Shown here: positions 3,554 through 13,400 of the stretch, one piece after another
How positions within the stretch are numbered: position 1 is the first letter of the stretch
Layout of the letters: each line of letters opens with the position of its first letter
DNA from: Paraflavitalea soli
Lineage (GTDB): Bacteria; Bacteroidota; Bacteroidia; Chitinophagales; Chitinophagaceae
Direction: 5' to 3'
NCBI RefSeq assembly: GCF_003555545.1
Contig: NZ_CP032157.1
Coordinates: forward strand, 8,374,546-8,438,545
DNA length: 64,000 nucleotides
Notes under the pieces: generated by a model
Seen by the model: only the letters and a program-made list of their open reading frames with translations
The model's database searches: none
What the model was told of the DNA's origin: nothing
Translations under genes and position numbers: made by a program

Positions 3554-3782
3554 GAAATGTGTGTTGTGGGTGGGAAATGAATGAACTGATCCGGTGGCAG
3601 GAAGTGATTTTCATGTCTTTAATTTTTGAGAACAATAAATGTATAGTGAAATAAAAAGCAGGCCGGAGGGCCTTTGAAACAGCAGGAGCTGCAGGGTGTA
3701 TGGTGTGGATTACAATTTCATGATGGCGCAAAGGTAAACATTTATTAAAAAACGTACAAACAATGCTTTGAATTACTAAACT
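3554..3782. other. Divergent intergenic spacer
   Basis: This stretch separates the leftward ABC-F gene from the rightward GLPGLI operon. No convincing reading frame is seen. It must hold both promoters. A TTTG at 3767-3770 lies 16 bases before TACATTTA (3787-3794), roughly like the Bacteroidota -33/-7 pair, though the spacing is shorter than consensus. Confidence 0.4.
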
Positions 3783-3807
3783 TTCGTACATTTACGATAT
3801 AATCGTA
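3783..3807. promoter_or_regulatory. Putative BlaI-type operator before the GLPGLI operon
   Basis: TTCGTACATTTACGA (3783-3797) is identical in 15 of 15 bases, in the same orientation relative to its gene, to the sequence in front of the BlaI-like gene (reverse complement of 9150-9164). A second overlapping palindrome, TACGAT-ATA-ATCGTA, spans 3793-3807. The site sits 17 bases before the ATG at 3824 and overlaps a candidate -7 element. Repression by the BlaI-like protein is an inference. Confidence 0.7.
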
Positions 3808-3823
3808 GTTTAAATCATTGATT

Positions 3824-4699
3824 ATGAAAGCATTTACCACATTAACACTCCTTGTTAGCTTGCATGTTGGCGTCTATGCCCAGCAACCCGAGCCCCTCGT
3901 TTTAACGGTTAAGTACGACTTCCTGCACGTCTATGACACTGCCGACCGGGCCAATCCCATCCGTGAAACCATGTACCTGCTCGTGGGCCAGACCAGCAGC
4001 AATTACCGCCGCAGCCCCGCCGCTCCTTACATCAAGCCCAGCGCTGAGCCGGCCGTACGCAGCGGTGGGCCTACGATCACCGTATCCGGCATGCCCATGG
4101 CTGTCGTCAACGCGCCCGGCATCAGCGAAGGGGAACTATTTCAGTATCCTGCTGCCGGAACCTTCAAAACCTGCACGCACATCGCAATGAACGATTACCT
4201 GGTCGAAGACAAACTGCCGGTCATCAATTGGAAAGTAGGTACGGATACCAAAACCATCGGCGACTTCAAATGCCAGCAGGCTATTGGTACTTATGCCGGT
4301 CGCACTTACACTGTATGGTTTACCACCGACCTGCCTTTCCGTAACGGGCCCTGGAAATTGAATGGTCTGCCCGGCCTCATCCTTGAAGCCAGGGATGCCA
4401 CCGGCGATGTAGCCTTCACCTTTTCTGCCTTCACGAAAGCTGATTCCGGACAGGTCACGACATCCAACAAAACCCGGCTCATTACCACCAACCAGAAAGC
4501 CCTTAACCGTGTACGTGAAGCCTTCAATGAAAGTCCCGTTGCCACCATGCAGGCACAACTGCCTGCCGGTTCTCCTGTCCCTACATTGGCTTACCGCCTG
4601 CCCTCCGGAAAGACCGTGCGTGGTGAAGAAGCGCAGGAACTCATCGAGCAAAAAAGGAAAGCGAAGAATCCGAACAACAACCCACTTGAATTGAAGTAA
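3824..4699 (+). CDS. GLPGLI family secreted protein
   Basis: The ATG at 3824 is preferred over an in-frame TTG at 3818, because it begins a clean signal peptide (MKAFTTLTLLVSLHVGVYAQ). The protein has 291 residues and carries the family hallmark GLPGLI at 181-186, preceded by PFRNGPWKLN. GLPGLI proteins are Bacteroidota-specific, exported and of unknown biochemical function. They are usually encoded beside an outer-membrane barrel protein with an N-terminal CarboxypepD_reg-like domain, which is the case here: the next gene starts 3 bases after this stop. The operator-like site upstream links the pair to the convergent BlaI/M56 unit. Confidence 0.9.
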   Translation: MKAFTTLTLLVSLHVGVYAQQPEPLVLTVKYDFLHVYDTADRANPIRETMYLLVGQTSSNYRRSPAAPYIKPSAEPAVRSGGPTITVSGMPMAVVNAPGISEGELFQYPAAGTFKTCTHIAMNDYLVEDKLPVINWKVGTDTKTIGDFKCQQAIGTYAGRTYTVWFTTDLPFRNGPWKLNGLPGLILEARDATGDVAFTFSAFTKADSGQVTTSNKTRLITTNQKALNRVREAFNESPVATMQAQLPAGSPVPTLAYRLPSGKTVRGEEAQELIEQKRKAKNPNNNPLELK

Positions 4700-4702
4700 T
4701 TC

Positions 4703-7387
4703 ATGAAAAGCCTATTGTGGTGTCTTGTAGCCTTGTGGCTACAGGCGCCCCTGCTGGCGCAGGTAAAACAGCTTACCGGTCACCTCAAAGGCCCGGGTGG
4801 GAAACCCTTGCCGCAGGCGAGCATATCGCTCAGGAACAAACAGGGACTTATCGTACAATATACCATCAGTAATGACAAAGGAAACTTCCAGCTATCATTG
4901 GCTGATACGGCTTACCTCACAAGTCTATCGCTCGAAGTCACTCACCTTGGTTATAAAAGATTGCTGACACCCTTGCAGGCAGGTAAATACGTTTATGAGC
5001 TACAACTCGAAGAGCAGGCCGTGCTCTTGCCCGAAGTAGAGGTCAGGAACAGGCCCATCATCTCCAGCAAAGGTGATACCGTCAGCTACAATGTGCGCTC
5101 CTTCGCGCAGGAAGAAGACCGCAGTATCGGCGATGTACTCCGCAGGATGCCCGGCATAGAAGTAGGCGACGATGGCAAGATCTACTACAATGGCCAGCAG
5201 GTTTCCAACCTCTACATTCATGGCGACGACCTCATGGCAGGGCGCTATGGGTTAGCTACGAAAGCCATCAACAAAGAGCTCATCCAGAGCGTCGATGTGA
5301 TCAGGAACCACCAGCCTATCAAGGTCCTGCAGGATAAAGCAACCTCGGATGCTGTCGCCGTCAACCTGGTATTGAAAGATGAGAACAGCACAGCCCTCAC
5401 CGGTCAGGCCATGCTGGCCGGTGGCTGGCCAACACTATATGATGCGGCGCTCAATACGATCCTCCTCAACAGGCGCATGAAGATGATCAACGCTGCAAAG
5501 TTCAACAACAGTGGTGTCGATTACCAAAGTGATTATGAGCAGTTGGGTTCCGATGCATTTTCATCAGCAGGAGGTGGTACCACACCCTCCAACCTGCTGT
5601 CGGGCGGCACGGTACCCAACCCCGATCTGCCGCGCCGCAACTACTATTTCAACAGGTCGGGCCTCATCAACCTCAACCATCTTGTCAACAACAAAAAAGA
5701 CATCCAGTTCCGCACGAACGTGCAGGGATTTAGCGACCGGCAGACCTTCGATTACAGCAGTACCGTAGAGCAATACCTGGCAGGCGACACGATCGTATAC
5801 CGCGAAAAGCAGGATGCGCTGCGCAAGCCCTGGTTCATCAACGGCGCTTTCACGGTCATGGCCAATACCAACAAATACTATATCCGCAATAAGACCGACA
5901 TTCAACTCAAGGAGGACTACAACGGTAGTCAGTTGCAAAGCAATACGCTCAATTTTGGACAGCAATTGCGCAACCGGCAACAGGCTTTTTCCAACGATTT
6001 CGATTGTAAGCCTTTTTCCAAAAGCAGGAACATGTGGGATATCCACCTTTATACCAGCTATGCTACCAATCCACAGCGTTTGTTCGTCGATCAGGGCCTG
6101 CACAGCGATATACTCAACGATAGCCTGCCCTATGCCGCCATCGCTCAGCAGGCCCGGATGCCTACCTGGTACAACGAAGCATCACTTGGTTATATCATTC
6201 CTTCCAATACCCGGTGGATCACCCAGGAATATAAATTAGGGTTCTCCAGCGAGCGGCAAACGCTCATTTCCCAACTGGAACTTGTACAGGACAATGGTAG
6301 TGTTAAAAGCTATGAAGGAGATGTGGGTAACGATCTCCGATGGCGGCGCAATGTCCTCCAGGCTTCCGCAAAGTATTCACTCAATAAAGGGCGCTTCCAT
6401 GCCAGTCTTTTTGTGCCCTTCACCTGGCAGGGCATCCGCTATCACCAACCGGAATATGCGCTCGACAACCGCGACCGCCAGTTCTTCATCAATCCAACGG
6501 GTTGGGTAAAGTACCGGATCAATGTAGAAGATCACCTCCAATTCAGTTACCGGTATAATAACAACATGGGTAATATCTCGGGCGTGTACAGGGGCGCCAT
6601 TCTTGCCAACTACCGCTCCCTGCGCGCCAATGACGCCGGATTGCAGGAGCGTTCTATGTCGAATGCCAGCCTCAGCTATAGCTTTCAACGCGCCATCATC
6701 ATGCTCTTCATCAATGCCAGTGTTGCCTATACCAACACCACAGTCAATAGTCTCTATGCTTCCATCGTCACCGACAACATCCAGCGCAGCATCCTGCTGC
6801 CTTATAAGAACGATCAGAGCAGCCTCTCGGCCAATGCCGGCATCAGCAAATACCTCTTTGCCCTCAAAAGCACCGTATCGGTAAAGGGAACTTTCTCCCA
6901 GGGGCGTTACAATCAGTTCTTCAACGATCAGTTCCTGCCCTATGACAACAATACTACATCGCTGCAGGCAACTATCGAAAGCAAGCCCTTTGGCAAGTTC
7001 AGCCTGCGTTACAATGGTAGTTCCCATTGGAGCAACAGCCGGCAGCGTGATCTGGTAACAGCGGCGAAGGCCATCACCAATCGTACCAGCAGGATCGATC
7101 AGCATATCGTGTTTGGCATCACGCCCTTCAGGAGTGTATTCATGAACTTCACTGCTCGTCATCTCCATAGCCGGCAGCCGCAGGTATCCGCCGTCAGCTA
7201 CCTGTTTATGGATCTCAACCTGCGCTACAAGCACAAGCCCTGGCGCACGGACTTCGAGTTCGATCTTACGAATATCGCTAATGTAAATACATACGAATTG
7301 TACAGGGTAAGCAGTAATTTATTCTCTGCCGACCGGTACCAGATCAGGGGCAGGATGGCTGTGCTCAGGGCCACTTTCAATCTGTAA
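4703..7387 (+). CDS. Outer membrane beta-barrel protein with carboxypeptidase-like N-terminal domain (TonB-receptor-like)
   Basis: The 894-residue protein begins with a signal peptide (to about residue 20, LLAQ). A CarboxypepD_reg-like beta-sandwich follows (about 22-105), with the pattern GPGGKPLPQASISL and NDKGNFQLSL. A plug-like domain comes next (about 112-230: SIGDVLRRMPGIEV, YYNGQQVSNLYIHGDDL), then a long region rich in alternating aromatic strands ending in an aromatic/hydrophobic C-terminus (RATFNL), as expected for an outer-membrane barrel. Proteins of this group are often encoded next to GLPGLI proteins; ligand and partners are unknown. It is translationally close to the GLPGLI gene (3 bases) and its 3' end lies 10 bases from the convergent M56 gene. 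A role in sensing or exporting a peptide or cell-wall product would be speculation. Confidence 0.87.
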   Translation: MKSLLWCLVALWLQAPLLAQVKQLTGHLKGPGGKPLPQASISLRNKQGLIVQYTISNDKGNFQLSLADTAYLTSLSLEVTHLGYKRLLTPLQAGKYVYELQLEEQAVLLPEVEVRNRPIISSKGDTVSYNVRSFAQEEDRSIGDVLRRMPGIEVGDDGKIYYNGQQVSNLYIHGDDLMAGRYGLATKAINKELIQSVDVIRNHQPIKVLQDKATSDAVAVNLVLKDENSTALTGQAMLAGGWPTLYDAALNTILLNRRMKMINAAKFNNSGVDYQSDYEQLGSDAFSSAGGGTTPSNLLSGGTVPNPDLPRRNYYFNRSGLINLNHLVNNKKDIQFRTNVQGFSDRQTFDYSSTVEQYLAGDTIVYREKQDALRKPWFINGAFTVMANTNKYYIRNKTDIQLKEDYNGSQLQSNTLNFGQQLRNRQQAFSNDFDCKPFSKSRNMWDIHLYTSYATNPQRLFVDQGLHSDILNDSLPYAAIAQQARMPTWYNEASLGYIIPSNTRWITQEYKLGFSSERQTLISQLELVQDNGSVKSYEGDVGNDLRWRRNVLQASAKYSLNKGRFHASLFVPFTWQGIRYHQPEYALDNRDRQFFINPTGWVKYRINVEDHLQFSYRYNNNMGNISGVYRGAILANYRSLRANDAGLQERSMSNASLSYSFQRAIIMLFINASVAYTNTTVNSLYASIVTDNIQRSILLPYKNDQSSLSANAGISKYLFALKSTVSVKGTFSQGRYNQFFNDQFLPYDNNTTSLQATIESKPFGKFSLRYNGSSHWSNSRQRDLVTAAKAITNRTSRIDQHIVFGITPFRSVFMNFTARHLHSRQPQVSAVSYLFMDLNLRYKHKPWRTDFEFDLTNIANVNTYELYRVSSNLFSADRYQIRGRMAVLRATFNL

Positions 7388-7397
7388 AAAGAAATGG

Positions 7398-8765
7398 TTA
7401 TTGCTGTCCGCGACCGGTCACGGTTACTTCCCGGAGATTGCCTTTGGAAGAATCGGCCGGTGGTGTGACGCGGATACCATTAATGCGACGCGTAGTGGGG
7501 TAGCCTGTTACGATCACTTCATTCTGCACGGGAAAACCTGCTACTGTTTTTGAAGTTACACGGCCCGTAGCATTGGGTGTGCCCGCAAGGCTTAATTTGT
7601 CTGCGGCAGCAGTAACGGGCGTTTCATACAGGCGTCCCTGGATACCCTGGCGAAGTGGCTGACCTACCAGTTCCCGGGCAGGAGGATCCGTTGTTGCTGC
7701 TGCCTGTTGCTGGGAATTGGATCCATTGGCAATAGGACGGATGGTTATTTGCACAGGCTGCCTGCCCGTGCGCGACGGGAGAGCGGCTGACTGGGTATCC
7801 GGTACTGACAAATTGAGAACAGTAGGGGGGGAGGTAGCAGGTTCGTTGATTGTTGCAGCAGGTGTTAAGATCACTTGCTCCAATGCTTTGGTAGCAGCTT
7901 GCAAAGGTTGCCGCACGGTGATCGAAAACGCCAGGGTGATCAGCAGCAAAATGGGTAATAATAAAGCGTAGCGCCCCAGCGTCAATTTTGAAGAACGACG
8001 CACATTCATCATGCGGATCCTTTTCTTCAGGTCTACCAGGTTGAAATCATTTGCAATAAGTGGGGTAGCAGTGCGTGCGCCTATATGCAGCAAACTATAT
8101 TGGTACGCTTTCTTATCCGCTCCTGCTTCCAATACCTGTTCATCGGCAATGAACTCCAGGTTTTCTTTGATCGCTTTCCGGATGATCCAGGCTGCCGGGT
8201 TGAACCAGTTCAAGGTAAAGCACAGTTCTGCCAGCAGCACATCTACGGTATGCCGCTGCCGTACATGAATATGTTCATGGGCTACGATCGTCAGCAATTC
8301 CTCCGCGCTGTGTTCTGCAGGATTGATGTAGATATGTTTGCCGAACGAAAAGGGGCTCATAGAGGCATTGATCAATCGAACGGGTGCATCTCCAATAAGG
8401 GCAGGCGCTGATTGGCGATGGATACGGTACAGGGATACGAACTGCCGCAGGATCCGGAACAGCATTACGGCTAATCCTATATAAAAAAGGAGGAATACCC
8501 AGGTCATATAAGCCGGCATCACAGCTGTTGTCACCATCGTCCTGAGCTGTTGGGTAAATTCCGGTACGACGGCCATGGCTGTCTCCTTTGCAAACAGCGG
8601 CGACAGATCGATCAAAGGATACAGCATGGCGAAGCAAATGGCAAACAACAGGAAAGCCCGGTTGGCAGTATAGAATGTCAGGCGGCGAAGAATACCGTAA
8701 TAAGCTACTGCGAATAGCACCAGTACCAGGTTGATCTTGAAGAGGGCGATGAAGAAGGGGGGCAT
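7398..8765 (-). CDS. M56 family metallopeptidase (BlaR1/MecR1-like sensor)
   Basis: This 455-residue membrane protein has helices near 5-25, 36-55, 85-108 and 264-283. It has a zinc peptidase motif HEHIH at 163-167 and a downstream ENLEFIADE (201-209) that supplies the third ligand. In BlaR1-type systems this peptidase transmits a signal that inactivates the BlaI repressor. There is no penicillin-binding sensor domain. Instead, residues 290-455 form a Pro/Thr/Ala-rich periplasmic tail with two segments, EVIVTGYP and REVTVTGRG, that resemble the start of SusC-type plug domains. It is co-transcribed with the BlaI-like gene, 2 bases downstream of its stop. Confidence 0.88.
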   Translation of the reverse strand: MPPFFIALFKINLVLVLFAVAYYGILRRLTFYTANRAFLLFAICFAMLYPLIDLSPLFAKETAMAVVPEFTQQLRTMVTTAVMPAYMTWVFLLFYIGLAVMLFRILRQFVSLYRIHRQSAPALIGDAPVRLINASMSPFSFGKHIYINPAEHSAEELLTIVAHEHIHVRQRHTVDVLLAELCFTLNWFNPAAWIIRKAIKENLEFIADEQVLEAGADKKAYQYSLLHIGARTATPLIANDFNLVDLKKRIRMMNVRRSSKLTLGRYALLLPILLLITLAFSITVRQPLQAATKALEQVILTPAATINEPATSPPTVLNLSVPDTQSAALPSRTGRQPVQITIRPIANGSNSQQQAAATTDPPARELVGQPLRQGIQGRLYETPVTAAADKLSLAGTPNATGRVTSKTVAGFPVQNEVIVTGYPTTRRINGIRVTPPADSSKGNLREVTVTGRGQQ

Positions 8766-8767
8766 GC

Positions 8768-9133
8768 TTACTGTTTTTCATCGTTATCGATAAGGTTGAT
8801 GATCTCTTTCAGTTCGTCTTTGCTGATCTTGTTCTCTTTTGCGAAGAAGGTTACCAGTTCTTTGTAAGAACTGGAGAAGAAGTTGTTGACCATTCCGTTT
8901 ACGGAGCGCTTCTTGTATTCGCTCTCCCTGATCTTGGCGCTGTAGCGTAAAGCGTTCGCAATGCGTTCACTTTTCAAAAAGCCTTTCTTCTCGAGGTTCT
9001 TGATGGTAGATGCCAGTGTGGTGTAAGGCAGCCTTACAGGGTACAAGGCTGTCATAAAATCTTTTACGAAGCCGGGGCCAACTTTCCAGATGGCGATCAT
9101 TACAGCTTCTTCATGTGGGGTCAATTGTTCCAT
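8768..9133 (-). CDS. BlaI/MecI/CopY family transcriptional repressor
   Basis: The protein has 121 residues, the usual family length. An N-terminal winged helix spans about residues 5-75 (LTPHEEAVMIAIWKVGPGFV, LPYTTLASTIKNLEKKGFLK), followed by a C-terminal dimerisation helix region. BlaI-type proteins are dimeric repressors cleaved after signalling by an M56 partner, and that partner follows directly. The operator-like palindrome at 9149-9164 lies 15 bases upstream of the start, so autoregulation is likely. The same sequence occurs before the GLPGLI operon. Confidence 0.92.
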   Translation of the reverse strand: MEQLTPHEEAVMIAIWKVGPGFVKDFMTALYPVRLPYTTLASTIKNLEKKGFLKSERIANALRYSAKIRESEYKKRSVNGMVNNFFSSSYKELVTFFAKENKISKDELKEIINLIDNDEKQ

Positions 9134-9148
9134 AATATCAACGGGATA

Positions 9149-9171
9149 TTCGTAAATGTACGAAGTTTACG
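9149..9171. promoter_or_regulatory. Putative BlaI-type operator before the repressor gene
   Basis: TTCGTAAATGTACGAA (9149-9164) is an inverted repeat of 6-base arms (TTCGTA/TACGAA). A further arm TTTACG (9166-9171) pairs with CGTAAA (9151-9156). Its core is identical to the reverse complement of 3783-3797. The position just upstream of the repressor start fits autorepression. Confidence 0.7.
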
Positions 9172-9363
9172 GAGAATAAGGTATTAATTTTCAATGCTTC
9201 ATGAGTGAATAAATGATTTTTTAGTGTGCCAAATATAGTCGGCTGATAATCATTCACTTTGCGGTGGGTAGTCGCTATTGCCGGAAATCTTCCCGGACAG
9301 CGCTAAAGTCGCGGAAATTATTATTTTTGAAGGGTTTACCCAATGCGTTAATCAATCTACCAC

Positions 9364-9951
9364 ATGAAAATTGCTAAATCCAAGCACAAGAACGTTTTCT
9401 GCATAGAGGGCAACTGGACGAATGACCTGCGCGACAGGAGAAGTATCAAAACAGCCCTGGAATTCCTGGAGCATAATTCCTACAGTAAAAAGCACGTGCT
9501 GCATACGCACCGGCAATGTAGTTCCAAACAGGAGTTTGAGAACCTGGTGAAAGAATCCTGCTTAAAGCGATATGACCAATACAGTATTTTGTACCTCGCG
9601 TTTCACGGCAATGCGGGCCGCCTGCACGTAGGTAAGCGGGTGACGATGCGCCTGGAAGAAATTGCCGAAATGCTGGAAGGAAAAGCAGCCAATAAGATCA
9701 TTCACTTCGGCAGCTGCGAAACGATGTATGTGATGCGGCGGGAGCTCAACAGGTTTATGAAGCAAACGGGCGCCCTGGCCATATCGGGTTATGAGAACAC
9801 GATCGACTTTATGCCCAGCACTTTCCTCGACCTGCTCTATTTTCAGTTTTGCCAGCAATACCAGAAAATGTACCTGATCGAAAGGGATGTCAAACAATAT
9901 TATGGCAAGCTGGCGCGTGAGCTGGGTTTTAAAATGATCTACGAGAAATGA
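9364..9951 (+). CDS. Caspase/CHAT-like small protein of unknown function (DUF6642-like)
   Basis: The protein has 195 residues, no signal peptide and no membrane segment. I do not recognise a characterised homologue; it resembles proteins labelled DUF6642, from memory and unverified. Two spaced motifs are notable: LYLAFHGNAG with H81, and IIHFGSCETM with C118, followed by ALAISGYEN (137-145). A strand ending in H-G, then a strand ending in a Cys about 37 residues later, matches the catalytic His/Cys layout of caspase-fold (C14/CHAT) peptidases. Protease activity is an inference. The gene starts after a 230-base spacer and its last 4 bases overlap the start of the methyltransferase gene, so the two are translationally coupled. 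Confidence 0.75.
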   Translation: MKIAKSKHKNVFCIEGNWTNDLRDRRSIKTALEFLEHNSYSKKHVLHTHRQCSSKQEFENLVKESCLKRYDQYSILYLAFHGNAGRLHVGKRVTMRLEEIAEMLEGKAANKIIHFGSCETMYVMRRELNRFMKQTGALAISGYENTIDFMPSTFLDLLYFQFCQQYQKMYLIERDVKQYYGKLARELGFKMIYEK

Positions 9952-10483: not shown

Positions 10484-13400
10484 TCACTGATCCTTCAACG
10501 CTTCACCAGTATACTCGCTGGGTGTTGTACCAAACTGTTTTTTAAACTCCTTGCTGAAGTATTTACGGTCATTGTAGCCAACTGCCTGGGCTACCTCAAA
10601 TACGTTGAGTTGTTTTTCCCGCAACAGCTCTGCAGCCCGCTTCAGTCGTATGGATTTGATAAAGTCGTTGACCGACATATTGCTGACTGCCTTTATTTTC
10701 TTGTAGAGGATGGGGGCGCTCATGGCTACTTTTCTCGACAGCATGTCTACACCAAATTCCTGGTTGTCGAGGTTCTCTTCTACAATGCGCACCACCTGCT
10801 CCAGGAAGGCCTGTTCGATGGTATTTACCACCGGTTCTTTGGGAACGGGCACGGGAGTCGTGGGGCTAACAGCAGTATGTAATTGTTGCATGAACAGCCT
10901 GCGCCACTGTTCCCGGGCCAGCAGCAGGTTCCTGACATTCAGCTCCAGTACTTTGGTGCTGAAAGGTTTGGTCATGTAGATATTAGCGCCTGTTTCCAGT
11001 CCGCTCACATGATCGGTCTGGGTGCTCCTGGCAGTCAGTAAGATAACGGGTATATGGCTGGTGCGGTGGTCGGTCTTAATATGTCGGCAAAATTCGAAGC
11101 CATCCATTTGGGGCATCATCACATCGCTGATGATGATATCGGGAATTTCATGGACAGCCAGCTGCAAACCTTTAGCCCCATCGGGCGCTTCCAGTACATG
11201 GAACTGGCCTGCAAATTTTTCTTTGATGATATTCCTCAGTTCTACATTGTCTTCTACAATAAGCAGGGTAGGCTGCTGGCCCGCAGCTGGCTGCAGCTCA
11301 TTGGGCACCGGGTTGGCGGCAGGCAAGGCAGCAGGGATTGGAACAGGGGGCTGGTCAGTTGCTTTTACCTGGTTGAAATGCCGGTTGTCTTTGAACAGCC
11401 GTACAATGAAGGTGGTATGGCCGGTTTGATCATTGGCAGCCGGGATACTTTCGGCCGTGATGCTTCCCTTGTGAAGGAATACAATGTTTTTGGCCAGTGC
11501 CAACCCAATACCGTAACCGGTATTTTGCAAACCATGATCATCTACCTGGAAGAAGTTGGTAAAAACCTTATCGAGGTATTCAGCGGCAATGCCCCGGCCA
11601 TTGTCCATCACCTTTATGATCGCCTCGGTAGGGGTCTCTGTCACCTGCAGGGTGATCTGCCCGTTTTCTGGCGTGAAGCGCACAGCATTGGAAAGCAGGT
11701 TGAAGAATACTTTCTCCAGTTGCTCCCGGTCGAACCAAAGGAGTAATTGCGTTCCATCATAAATGAAGGAAGTGCTGATATTCTTTTTGAGGGCTATATC
11801 CTGGAAGCTATTGTAAATATCTTCGAGGAAGGGGATAAGGTCGTGTTGGGCCACCTGTAGTTTCAGGTGACCGGTTTCTGCTTTCCGGAAGTCCATCAAT
11901 TCGCTCACGAGCTTCAGGAGCCTGTTGGCGTTTTTATGGATGGAGTCAAGCTGCTGCCTGGCGAAACCGGAAGTATCTTCCGATTCCTGCATTTTTTCCA
12001 CCGGCGCCATGATGAGGGTAAGGTGTGTTCTGATCTCGTGCGATACATTGGTAAAGAAATTGAGTTTTACCTGGTGCAGTTCATCTTCTTTCTTGAACAG
12101 TTCCCTTAAGAATATATACCGGCTCAACAGGAAGATGATGCCGATGGCGATGAGGGTATAGATGATCCAGGCCCACCAGGTATTCCAGAAGGGTGGGAGC
12201 ACCTCGATCGGGAGTTGTATGGGATTGCTCCAGACACCATCGTTGTTGGCGCCCTTCACGATGAAATCATAATCGCCTGACGGCAGGTTTACATAGCTGG
12301 CAACGGGTGTATTGGTATACACCCAGTCCTTATCATATCCCTGCAATTTATAGGCGTAGGAATTCTTATTGCTCTTGATATAATTGATCAACGCAAATTC
12401 GAGGTTGATCACGTTCTGGTTGTGTTTTAAAGTAAGGTGATCAATGCCTGCTATGTTCTCTTTCAGCAGGCCGGTAGAATCACCGGGTACTATTTGTTTA
12501 TTGAAGAGCTTAAGGCCGGTAAGAACGGTATTGCCAGCCCTTGGGTTTGATACGATCTTATCCGGGGCAAACCAGGTGATGCCGTTGAATCCGCCGAAAT
12601 AAAATGCTCCTTTGCTGTCTTTGAAGAAGGAGTTGTAGTTAAAGGCATTGCCGGCGAGGCCGTCGCTCACGGTGAACAATTGCAGCTGATTTTGTGGTGG
12701 GTTGAATTTCAGCAGGCCATTGTCGCTGCTGAGCCAAAGGTTCTGCTGGTTGTCTTCAAGGATGCCAAAAATGTTGCGGCTGCTGATCTTCTCCGGTTGC
12801 GTGAGGTAGACTGGTTTCTGGCTTGATTCGTCAAACCTGGCGAGGCCGGCTTGCTGCAGGCCCCACCATACCTGGGTATATTTATCCTGCATCACACAAT
12901 TGACGATATTGTCGGATAGTTTTTGAATAGAATCGTTCCGGAGCAGGAACAGCCCGCTGTTGGTACTTATCCACAGGCGGTTCTTATCATCTTCGAAAAA
13001 GTATTTGGCGGTGTTGGCAAATACGGGATGGCTGGTAAGGGGAAGGTGAACGGGGGTAAGGCCCTGTGGCGATTTGTCATAGAGTTTAATGCCCATGGTA
13101 GAGCCTACCCACAATCTCCCTTTGGTGTCTTCATAGATGCTCACGATCTCTGCATTGAGATAGGCAGGATTGTTGTCTTCATAGAGGTAGCGGGTGAATT
13201 TTTTATGCACGGGGTCGAAGAGGTTCAGGCCGCCGCCATGGGTACCGCACCATATTTGACCCTGCCAGTCGCGGTACACCACTTTGATGAGGTTGGAGCC
13301 AATGCTGCCGGGATCGCCGGGATTGTGTCGGTAACTGGTGAAGCGGCCCGTACTGCGGTCGTAATAATTCAATCCTCCTCCTTCTGTACCTATCCACAGG

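Follow-up and report, generated by a model that had tools for sequence, protein, structure and literature searches.

Does the BlaI/MecI-type repressor encoded at this locus of Paraflavitalea soli control the GLPGLI and barrel genes that face it, and which cue would lift that control? The stretch of DNA analysed here (the window) is 64,000 nucleotides long and contains two convergent units, GLPGLI-barrel and BlaI-M56 (Table 1). We consider it likely, from the sites shared between promoters, that double dyads serve as operators for BlaI-type repression of the GLPGLI-barrel operon, of the repressor's own operon and of an unlinked barrel gene, and that the M56 peptidase relieves this repression. 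BlaI control of the GLPGLI and barrel genes is the part of this reading that is well supported.

Table 1. Features of the two convergent units (positions within the window).
Feature	Position	Strand	Basis or remark
Double operator of the GLPGLI-barrel unit	3774..3807	+	TACTA-AACTT-TCGTA-CATT-TACGA-TATAA-TCGTA; 19/20 consensus positions
15-mer TTCGTACATTTACGA, junction of two dyads (inner half-sites), GLPGLI unit	3783..3797	+	sequence search
-7-like box TACATTTA within the junction, putative promoter	3787..3794	+	resembles the TAnnTTTG consensus
GLPGLI family protein, 291 aa	3824..4699	+	TIGR01200, 140.7 bits (NCBIfam subfamily cut-off 50)
894-aa protein with CarboxypepD_reg-like start, probable outer-membrane beta-barrel	4703..7387	+	Pfam matches weak, under the cut-off
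M56 membrane metallopeptidase, 455 aa, HExxH	7398..8765	-	PF05569, E 1.6e-11
BlaI/MecI-type repressor, 121 aa	8768..9133	-	PF03965, E 3.6e-25
Double operator of the BlaI-M56 unit	9140..9173	-	TCCGT-AAACT-TCGTA-CATT-TACGA-ATATC-CCGTT; 16/20
Second 15-mer copy (exact reverse complement), junction of the BlaI operators	9150..9164	-	sequence search

The gene identities proposed in the preliminary description were confirmed by family scans for GLPGLI, Peptidase_M56 and Penicillinase_R, whereas the 894-aa protein can only be called a probable barrel, because its matches are limited to CarboxypepD_reg and lie below threshold. These same sub-threshold matches are all that relates it to TonB-dependent receptors, together with a weak Plug match in its L068 homologue (E 0.03, below the cut-off). 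The GLPGLI protein has, judged by eye, a signal-peptide-like start. Penicillinase_R covers residues 4-116 of the repressor, nearly the whole protein, which places it in the BlaI/MecI/CopY family, and MecI chains were retrieved with it by sequence (E 6.5e-07). H162, E163 and H166 of the M56 protein are invariant in an alignment of 41 proteins. Our own HMMs for BlaI, M56, GLPGLI and the barrel were built from few sequences, and their E-values are rough. The genome holds 9 strong BlaI and 11 M56 genes. Just past the BlaI promoter, and transcribed away from it, lies a gene for a DUF6642 protein (9364-9951, E 1.4e-32).

An identical 15-mer had been described ahead of both units, and indeed the window contains it in two exact copies, oriented alike with respect to their genes, 27-41 bases upstream of the GLPGLI ATG (3824) and 17-31 bases upstream of the BlaI ATG (9133). 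With up to 3 mismatches the number of matches in the window is 5, including both sites as read on the opposite strand; in 100 shuffles the mean was 1.16 and the highest count 4. Nor is the 15-mer common at unrelated sites: among the TTCGTANNNNTACGA matches of the 8,443,189-base single-contig genome, the exact sequence is present in these two copies only. The ORFs surrounding the TTCGTANNNNTACGA sites at 0.144, 0.222, 2.868 and 2.876 Mb include no BlaI, M56 or GLPGLI. The copies were also said to be palindromic; they are, but imperfectly, with 6 of 8 (first) and 7 of 8 (second) pairs over 16 bp.

The view of the 15-mer as one operator did not hold. Upstream of close BlaI homologues the full element reads TACGA-N5-TCGTA-N4-TACGA-N5-TCGTA, that is, two tandem dyads 4 bp apart, of which the 15-mer is the junction. 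We rejected the 15-mer alone as the operator because the relatives conserve all four half-sites. The inner half-sites are perfect in both window promoters and the outer ones are degenerate in the BlaI-M56 operator, the weight matrix giving 10.8 bits to the window BlaI site vs 33.4 bits to the GLPGLI site. In most promoters scored, the N4 junction holds a TAnnTTTA box resembling the -7 consensus TAnnTTTG given for Bacteroidota (PMC9723704). In many relatives this box is preceded by a TTTG or TTGG that starts 22-25 bp upstream, and in the window GLPGLI promoter the distance is 20 bp; no such element was found upstream of the box of the window BlaI.

Sequence comparison with relatives defines the architecture, specificity and conservation of the operator, and the membership of the regulon as shared sites. 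Convergent GLPGLI-barrel and M56-BlaI units with this BlaI type, the barrel homologue adjoining GLPGLI each time, occur in nine distinct loci: the window, L040, L041 (=L085), L042 (=L087), L070 (=L094), L071 (=L095), L073 (=L097), L076 (=L100) and L101. All nine GLPGLI promoters carry a dyad of at least 9/10, and the array lies upstream of both units in 9/9 loci, some copies having indels or weak outer half-sites. Array scores out of 20 are 20, 20, 20, 19, 19, 19, 18, 18 and 14 at GLPGLI (the 14 has an indel) and 14 to 19 at BlaI. The lowest BlaI scores, 15 in L100 and 14 in L101, where the inner core TCGTATATTTACGA alone is intact, are also reached by 4 of 828 background ORFs. BlaI promoters other than these, 18 in all, served to build a weight matrix, by which the target site outscores BlaI's own site in 8 of the 9 loci, as would be expected if the target were repressed more tightly than the regulator; the exception is L101, where the GLPGLI array has the indel and the matrix places the BlaI site higher. 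The window and L040 are nearly identical, as are L070 and L071, and because of the common descent of the loci these counts cannot be taken as independent. Duplicate loci (14 ids) were excluded from the dyad and array counts, and the analysis covered 47 of the 52 barrel places, all but G208:C210, G177, G357, G068:C279, and G293:C35 at 186 kb.

In L042, three tandem dyads precede each unit (~6154-6206 and 12335-12390), and TTCACGA replaces TTTACGA in both promoters. The host genome has a second convergent locus (L025:5030-11559, 3.688-3.695 Mb), where BlaI-M56 faces GLPGLI and an OMP barrel, with, by eye, a putative peptidyl-prolyl isomerase; its BlaI is of a different type. We did not count this locus in the regulon because the array is missing upstream of the barrel and the BlaI site reads TACGA-N6-TCGTA.

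The array is not confined to the complete loci. It scores 18-20 of 20 upstream of 18 of the 20 close BlaI homologues found elsewhere (12 at 20/20, five at 19, one at 18), the exceptions being L051 (16) and L059 (15). Fifteen further BlaI loci, two already counted, gave 20 (six), 18 (three), 17 (two), 16, 15, 13 and 12; the weak ones include L143 (16), L161 (13) and L150 (12), the last two each keeping one exact dyad. Upstream of the L062 BlaI (41% identity) no array was found (score 11). Spacing is strict: across 36 promoters, 47 of 48 pairs of exact half-sites show the inward N5, and 23 of 25 junctions measure 4. Moreover, the array ends 1-6 bp upstream of the BlaI gene in 14 of the 15 genomes with coordinates compared, the distance in the fifteenth being taken from a reading frame extending upstream of the start codon. 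Other BlaI paralogues of the host genome show, by eye, different dyads with N6 spacing, e.g. AACTACAATTGTAGTT and CTCTACATTTGTAGAG, and the N5 array can therefore be regarded as the mark of one BlaI subgroup. It is distinct from the classical BlaI/MecI operator (N6, TACTA/AACTA-like half-sites), a statement about the type of operator and not about the membership of the protein.

How far does the regulon reach? Allowing up to 3 mismatches, the four-half-site pattern occurs at 3 places in the host genome, and the reversed control pattern gives one match per strand. Besides the window GLPGLI promoter, the places are a second BlaI at 5.377 Mb, in a BlaI-M56-M56 operon with a perfect 20/20 array, and a site at 5.748 Mb ending 10 bp upstream of an unlinked 930-aa OMP_b-brl_3 barrel gene (L131:7375-10167). 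This last gene has orthologues (60-80% identity) in 5 of the 8 genomes searched, and in all five (L164-L168) the array starts 41-47 bp upstream, with scores of 19, 19, 19, 19 and 20; it is absent from both of the more distant homologues inspected (L169 and L170, 38-40% identity). Another barrel gene precedes the 5.748 Mb one.

It is possible, if rather unlikely, that the GLPGLI-barrel operon answers mainly to the 5.377 Mb paralogue, the more widespread form, and that the linked BlaI-M56 pair is a modifier or a decoy. The paralogue owns the perfect array and its PYTTLASTIKNLE stretch is identical to that of the window BlaI; in addition, G002 and G003, in which the BlaI nearest to that of the window reaches no more than 54%, still keep the 5.748 Mb-type barrel with its array. 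Against this, the window-type BlaI is linked to GLPGLI-barrel in nine loci, with arrays at both units. Two BlaI paralogues could share these sites, so that the linked one is a candidate regulator.

Repression by a BlaI of this subgroup, which we prefer, also fits the distribution of the dyad among GLPGLI genes: it is present at 9 of 12 in loci with any BlaI and at 7 of 53 in loci without one (Fisher p 5.5e-5). The three that lack it beside a BlaI are those of L025 and L108, whose BlaI are of other types, and the second GLPGLI of L101. Conversely, of the seven GLPGLI genes that have the dyad without a linked BlaI, six carry it in exact form (L072, L126, L127, L128 and two in L068), and the seventh is in L065. 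For four of these unlinked loci the genomes were checked (G408, G380, G401 and G261), and control in trans is likely since each carries a close BlaI elsewhere, with an array of 17 to 20. Among 828 other ORFs of the loci, 5 have an exact dyad and 4 more a 9/10 dyad; by coordinates and sequences, all five exact cases are divergent neighbours of BlaI or GLPGLI promoters.

The full array is still more selective. Across 70 Chitinophagaceae genomes (one per genus), up to 1 mismatch, it marks 24 distinct places, spread over 19 genomes. Of these places, 19 precede BlaI, 1 an M56 gene without BlaI ahead, 2 GLPGLI and 2 an OMP_b-brl_3 barrel. The reversed pattern has no match in the same genomes. These places argue strongly against the palindromes being extended promoter or attenuator elements of a common -7 region, instead of repressor sites. 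We find this highly improbable even with the -7-like box inside the junction, for the 24 places fall to these few gene families, and the dyad (at least 9/10) is missing at 46 of the 53 GLPGLI promoters in loci without BlaI. The proposal of a BlaI-controlled system hence stands as far as the regulon joining both units is concerned, with the array in relatives and the specificity across 70 genomes behind it, and similar palindromes do recur before BlaI/M56 and GLPGLI genes; it falls as regards a single operator and a self-contained switch, for the array also stands at the unlinked barrel gene and the BlaI-M56-M56 operon, and in other loci some GLPGLI operons have the dyad although no BlaI lies within the locus as retrieved.

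Single dyads alone are uninformative in the host genome, because the reversed control gave 19 matches vs 7 exact dyads (at 6 loci). Those at 6.067 and 6.331 Mb lie within coding sequences and were treated as chance. At 8.031 Mb (L137:1501-1515) a single exact dyad stands 44-58 bp upstream of the likely start of a gene for a Por_Secre_tail protein, putatively type IX-secreted.

The BlaI-BlaR1 and MecI-MecR1 systems of staphylococci and bacilli offer the closest comparison, with the same repressor family and an adjacent M56 gene. In bla and mec, operators precede both the regulator and the target operons, as they do here. The staphylococcal mec operator has the geometry TACTA-N6-TAGTA, whereas the window dyads are TACGA-N5-TCGTA and stand two in tandem. 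Here the M56 peptidase domain with its HExxH is retained and the penicillin-binding sensor domain of BlaR1/MecR1 is absent; this absence had been noted before, and we found no transpeptidase or penicillin-binding Pfam match at E up to 1. A classical beta-lactam-sensing BlaI-BlaR1 system, suggested by the PF03965 and PF05569 pair and by weak similarity to the BlaR1 and MecI models, is hardly tenable given this absence, an NCBIfam BlaR1 score of 27.4 vs a cut-off of 400, and targets that are barrel and GLPGLI genes. The CopY/TcrY copper repressors belong to the same family, and the cop box is also a short dyad. We discarded a copper system of this type: the window BlaI scores 34.2 vs an NCBIfam cut-off of 121.95, and the families scanned reveal no copper gene in the two convergent units.

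With BlaI-type repression, then, the system might work as follows. BlaI dimers would bind at the core promoter of each unit, on the two adjacent TACGA-N5-TCGTA dyads with their 4-bp gap; because the TAnnTTTA box sits between the dyads, bound repressor would cover the core promoter, and would thereby block RNA polymerase. It would repress the GLPGLI-barrel operon and, more weakly, its own BlaI-M56 operon, and the barrel gene at 5.748 Mb is probably repressed too, either by this BlaI along with the 5.377 Mb paralogue or by the paralogue in its place. On sensing a periplasmic or envelope cue, M56 would inactivate BlaI and the barrel genes would be switched on. For the route of inactivation, the LVLNFVEKEEL region of MecI aligns with LVTFFAKENKI of the window BlaI. 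BlaI and MecI are cut before the Phe of this region, so that proteolytic inactivation of the window BlaI is plausible.

What could the cue be? The M56 tail and the targets point to something outer-membrane or TonB-related. Residues ~278-454 of M56 are predicted to be disordered (pLDDT <50, in a low-confidence model with a mean pLDDT of 54.8) and contain two Ton-box-like motifs, EVIVTGYPTTRR (EVIVTGY) and EVTVTGR, within the segments NEVIVTGYPTTRR and REVTVTGRGQQ. In the SusC protein Bt1763 the Ton box reads DEVVVTG (PMC7782687). The pattern [DE][VIL][VIT]V[VTI]GY matches 3 of the 9 tails of complete loci, 1 of 24 other M56 tails, and 4 times the remaining six-frame ORFs of at least 150 aa (486,693 aa in total), a background that includes duplicates and spurious frames. 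These four matches are found 105-235 residues from the start of ORFs 1,043-1,149 aa long, which we take for SusC-like receptors matched at their Ton box. A second SusC-shaped pattern matches 2 of the 9 tails, none of the 24 others, and 5 ORFs of the background, two of which (one locus, duplicated) are not SusC-size receptors; both patterns were written after the tails had been read. A looser Ton-box pattern, also chosen after seeing the tails, matches 9/9 complete-locus tails and 3/24 others. The M56 proteins of L048 and L108 gave no tail by the cut used and were left out of the tail counts.

Entire domains occur elsewhere: among the 41 M56 proteins scanned, 12 have a receptor Plug domain, one a TonB_C and one a CarbopepD_reg_2. 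The window M56 differs from such Chitinophagaceae proteins with TonB-system modules in having short Ton-box-like motifs only. A survey reportedly describes TonB-BlaR fusions in Bacteroidetes. In L032 (3851-5596) an M56 protein shows two receptor Plug-like segments in its periplasmic tail, and in L029 (2923-5415) another of ~830 aa has a long series of repeats in its tail. Because M56 sensors repeatedly bear parts of the TonB system and the targets are outer-membrane barrels, the state of TonB or of the outer membrane suggests itself as the signal. As a speculative and rather doubtful extension, M56 may be a TonB-coupled envelope sensor: one or two Ton-box mimics of its tail (EVIVTGYPTTRR, EVTVTGR) would vie with receptors for TonB, and TonB occupancy or pull would switch the protease, inactivate BlaI and so adjust the set of barrels.

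The GLPGLI protein, modelled with 20 relatives (mean pLDDT 82.6), shows a clear match to the PNGF-II N-terminal domain (Foldseek E 1.5e-8, Z 15.5), in agreement with its Pfam PNGase_F-II_N match. Matches to LolA, RseB and MucB are middling (Z 8.0-8.7; E 1.5e-4 for RseB and 8.8e-4 for LolA), and since the unrelated enzyme VioE and a Thermus protein of unknown function score 9.1, this borderline likeness may reflect a common arrangement only. A role in periplasmic binding is plausible. RseB/MucB-RseA are envelope-stress switches. The window system would resemble them in that a membrane protease responds to an envelope cue and envelope genes are freed from a transcriptional block; however, the block here would be a repressor and there an anti-sigma factor, and GLPGLI is a target here.

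Our literature search found no paper joining GLPGLI with BlaI, or a TonB box with a peptidase and M56, and among the matches listed for BlaI, BlaR1, MecR1 or M56 with TonB or Bacteroidetes no title or opening of an abstract concerned this system. Several GLPGLI genes are controlled by PhoP in Riemerella (PMC9603813), and one BlaI and one M56 gene of Porphyromonas gingivalis appear in tables of hemin-dependent expression and methylation (PMC10470040).

In conclusion, one widespread subgroup of BlaI would gain a precise operator code, a small outer-membrane barrel regulon and a concrete hypothesis on its signal, and the GLPGLI proteins, whose function is unknown, a regulatory context. The BlaI/M56 family is best known from antibiotic resistance. 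The operator allows the regulon to be predicted in other Chitinophagaceae genomes and to be tested directly. If the TonB hypothesis were true, the TonB system would be read out at the level of transcription by way of a BlaR-type relay.
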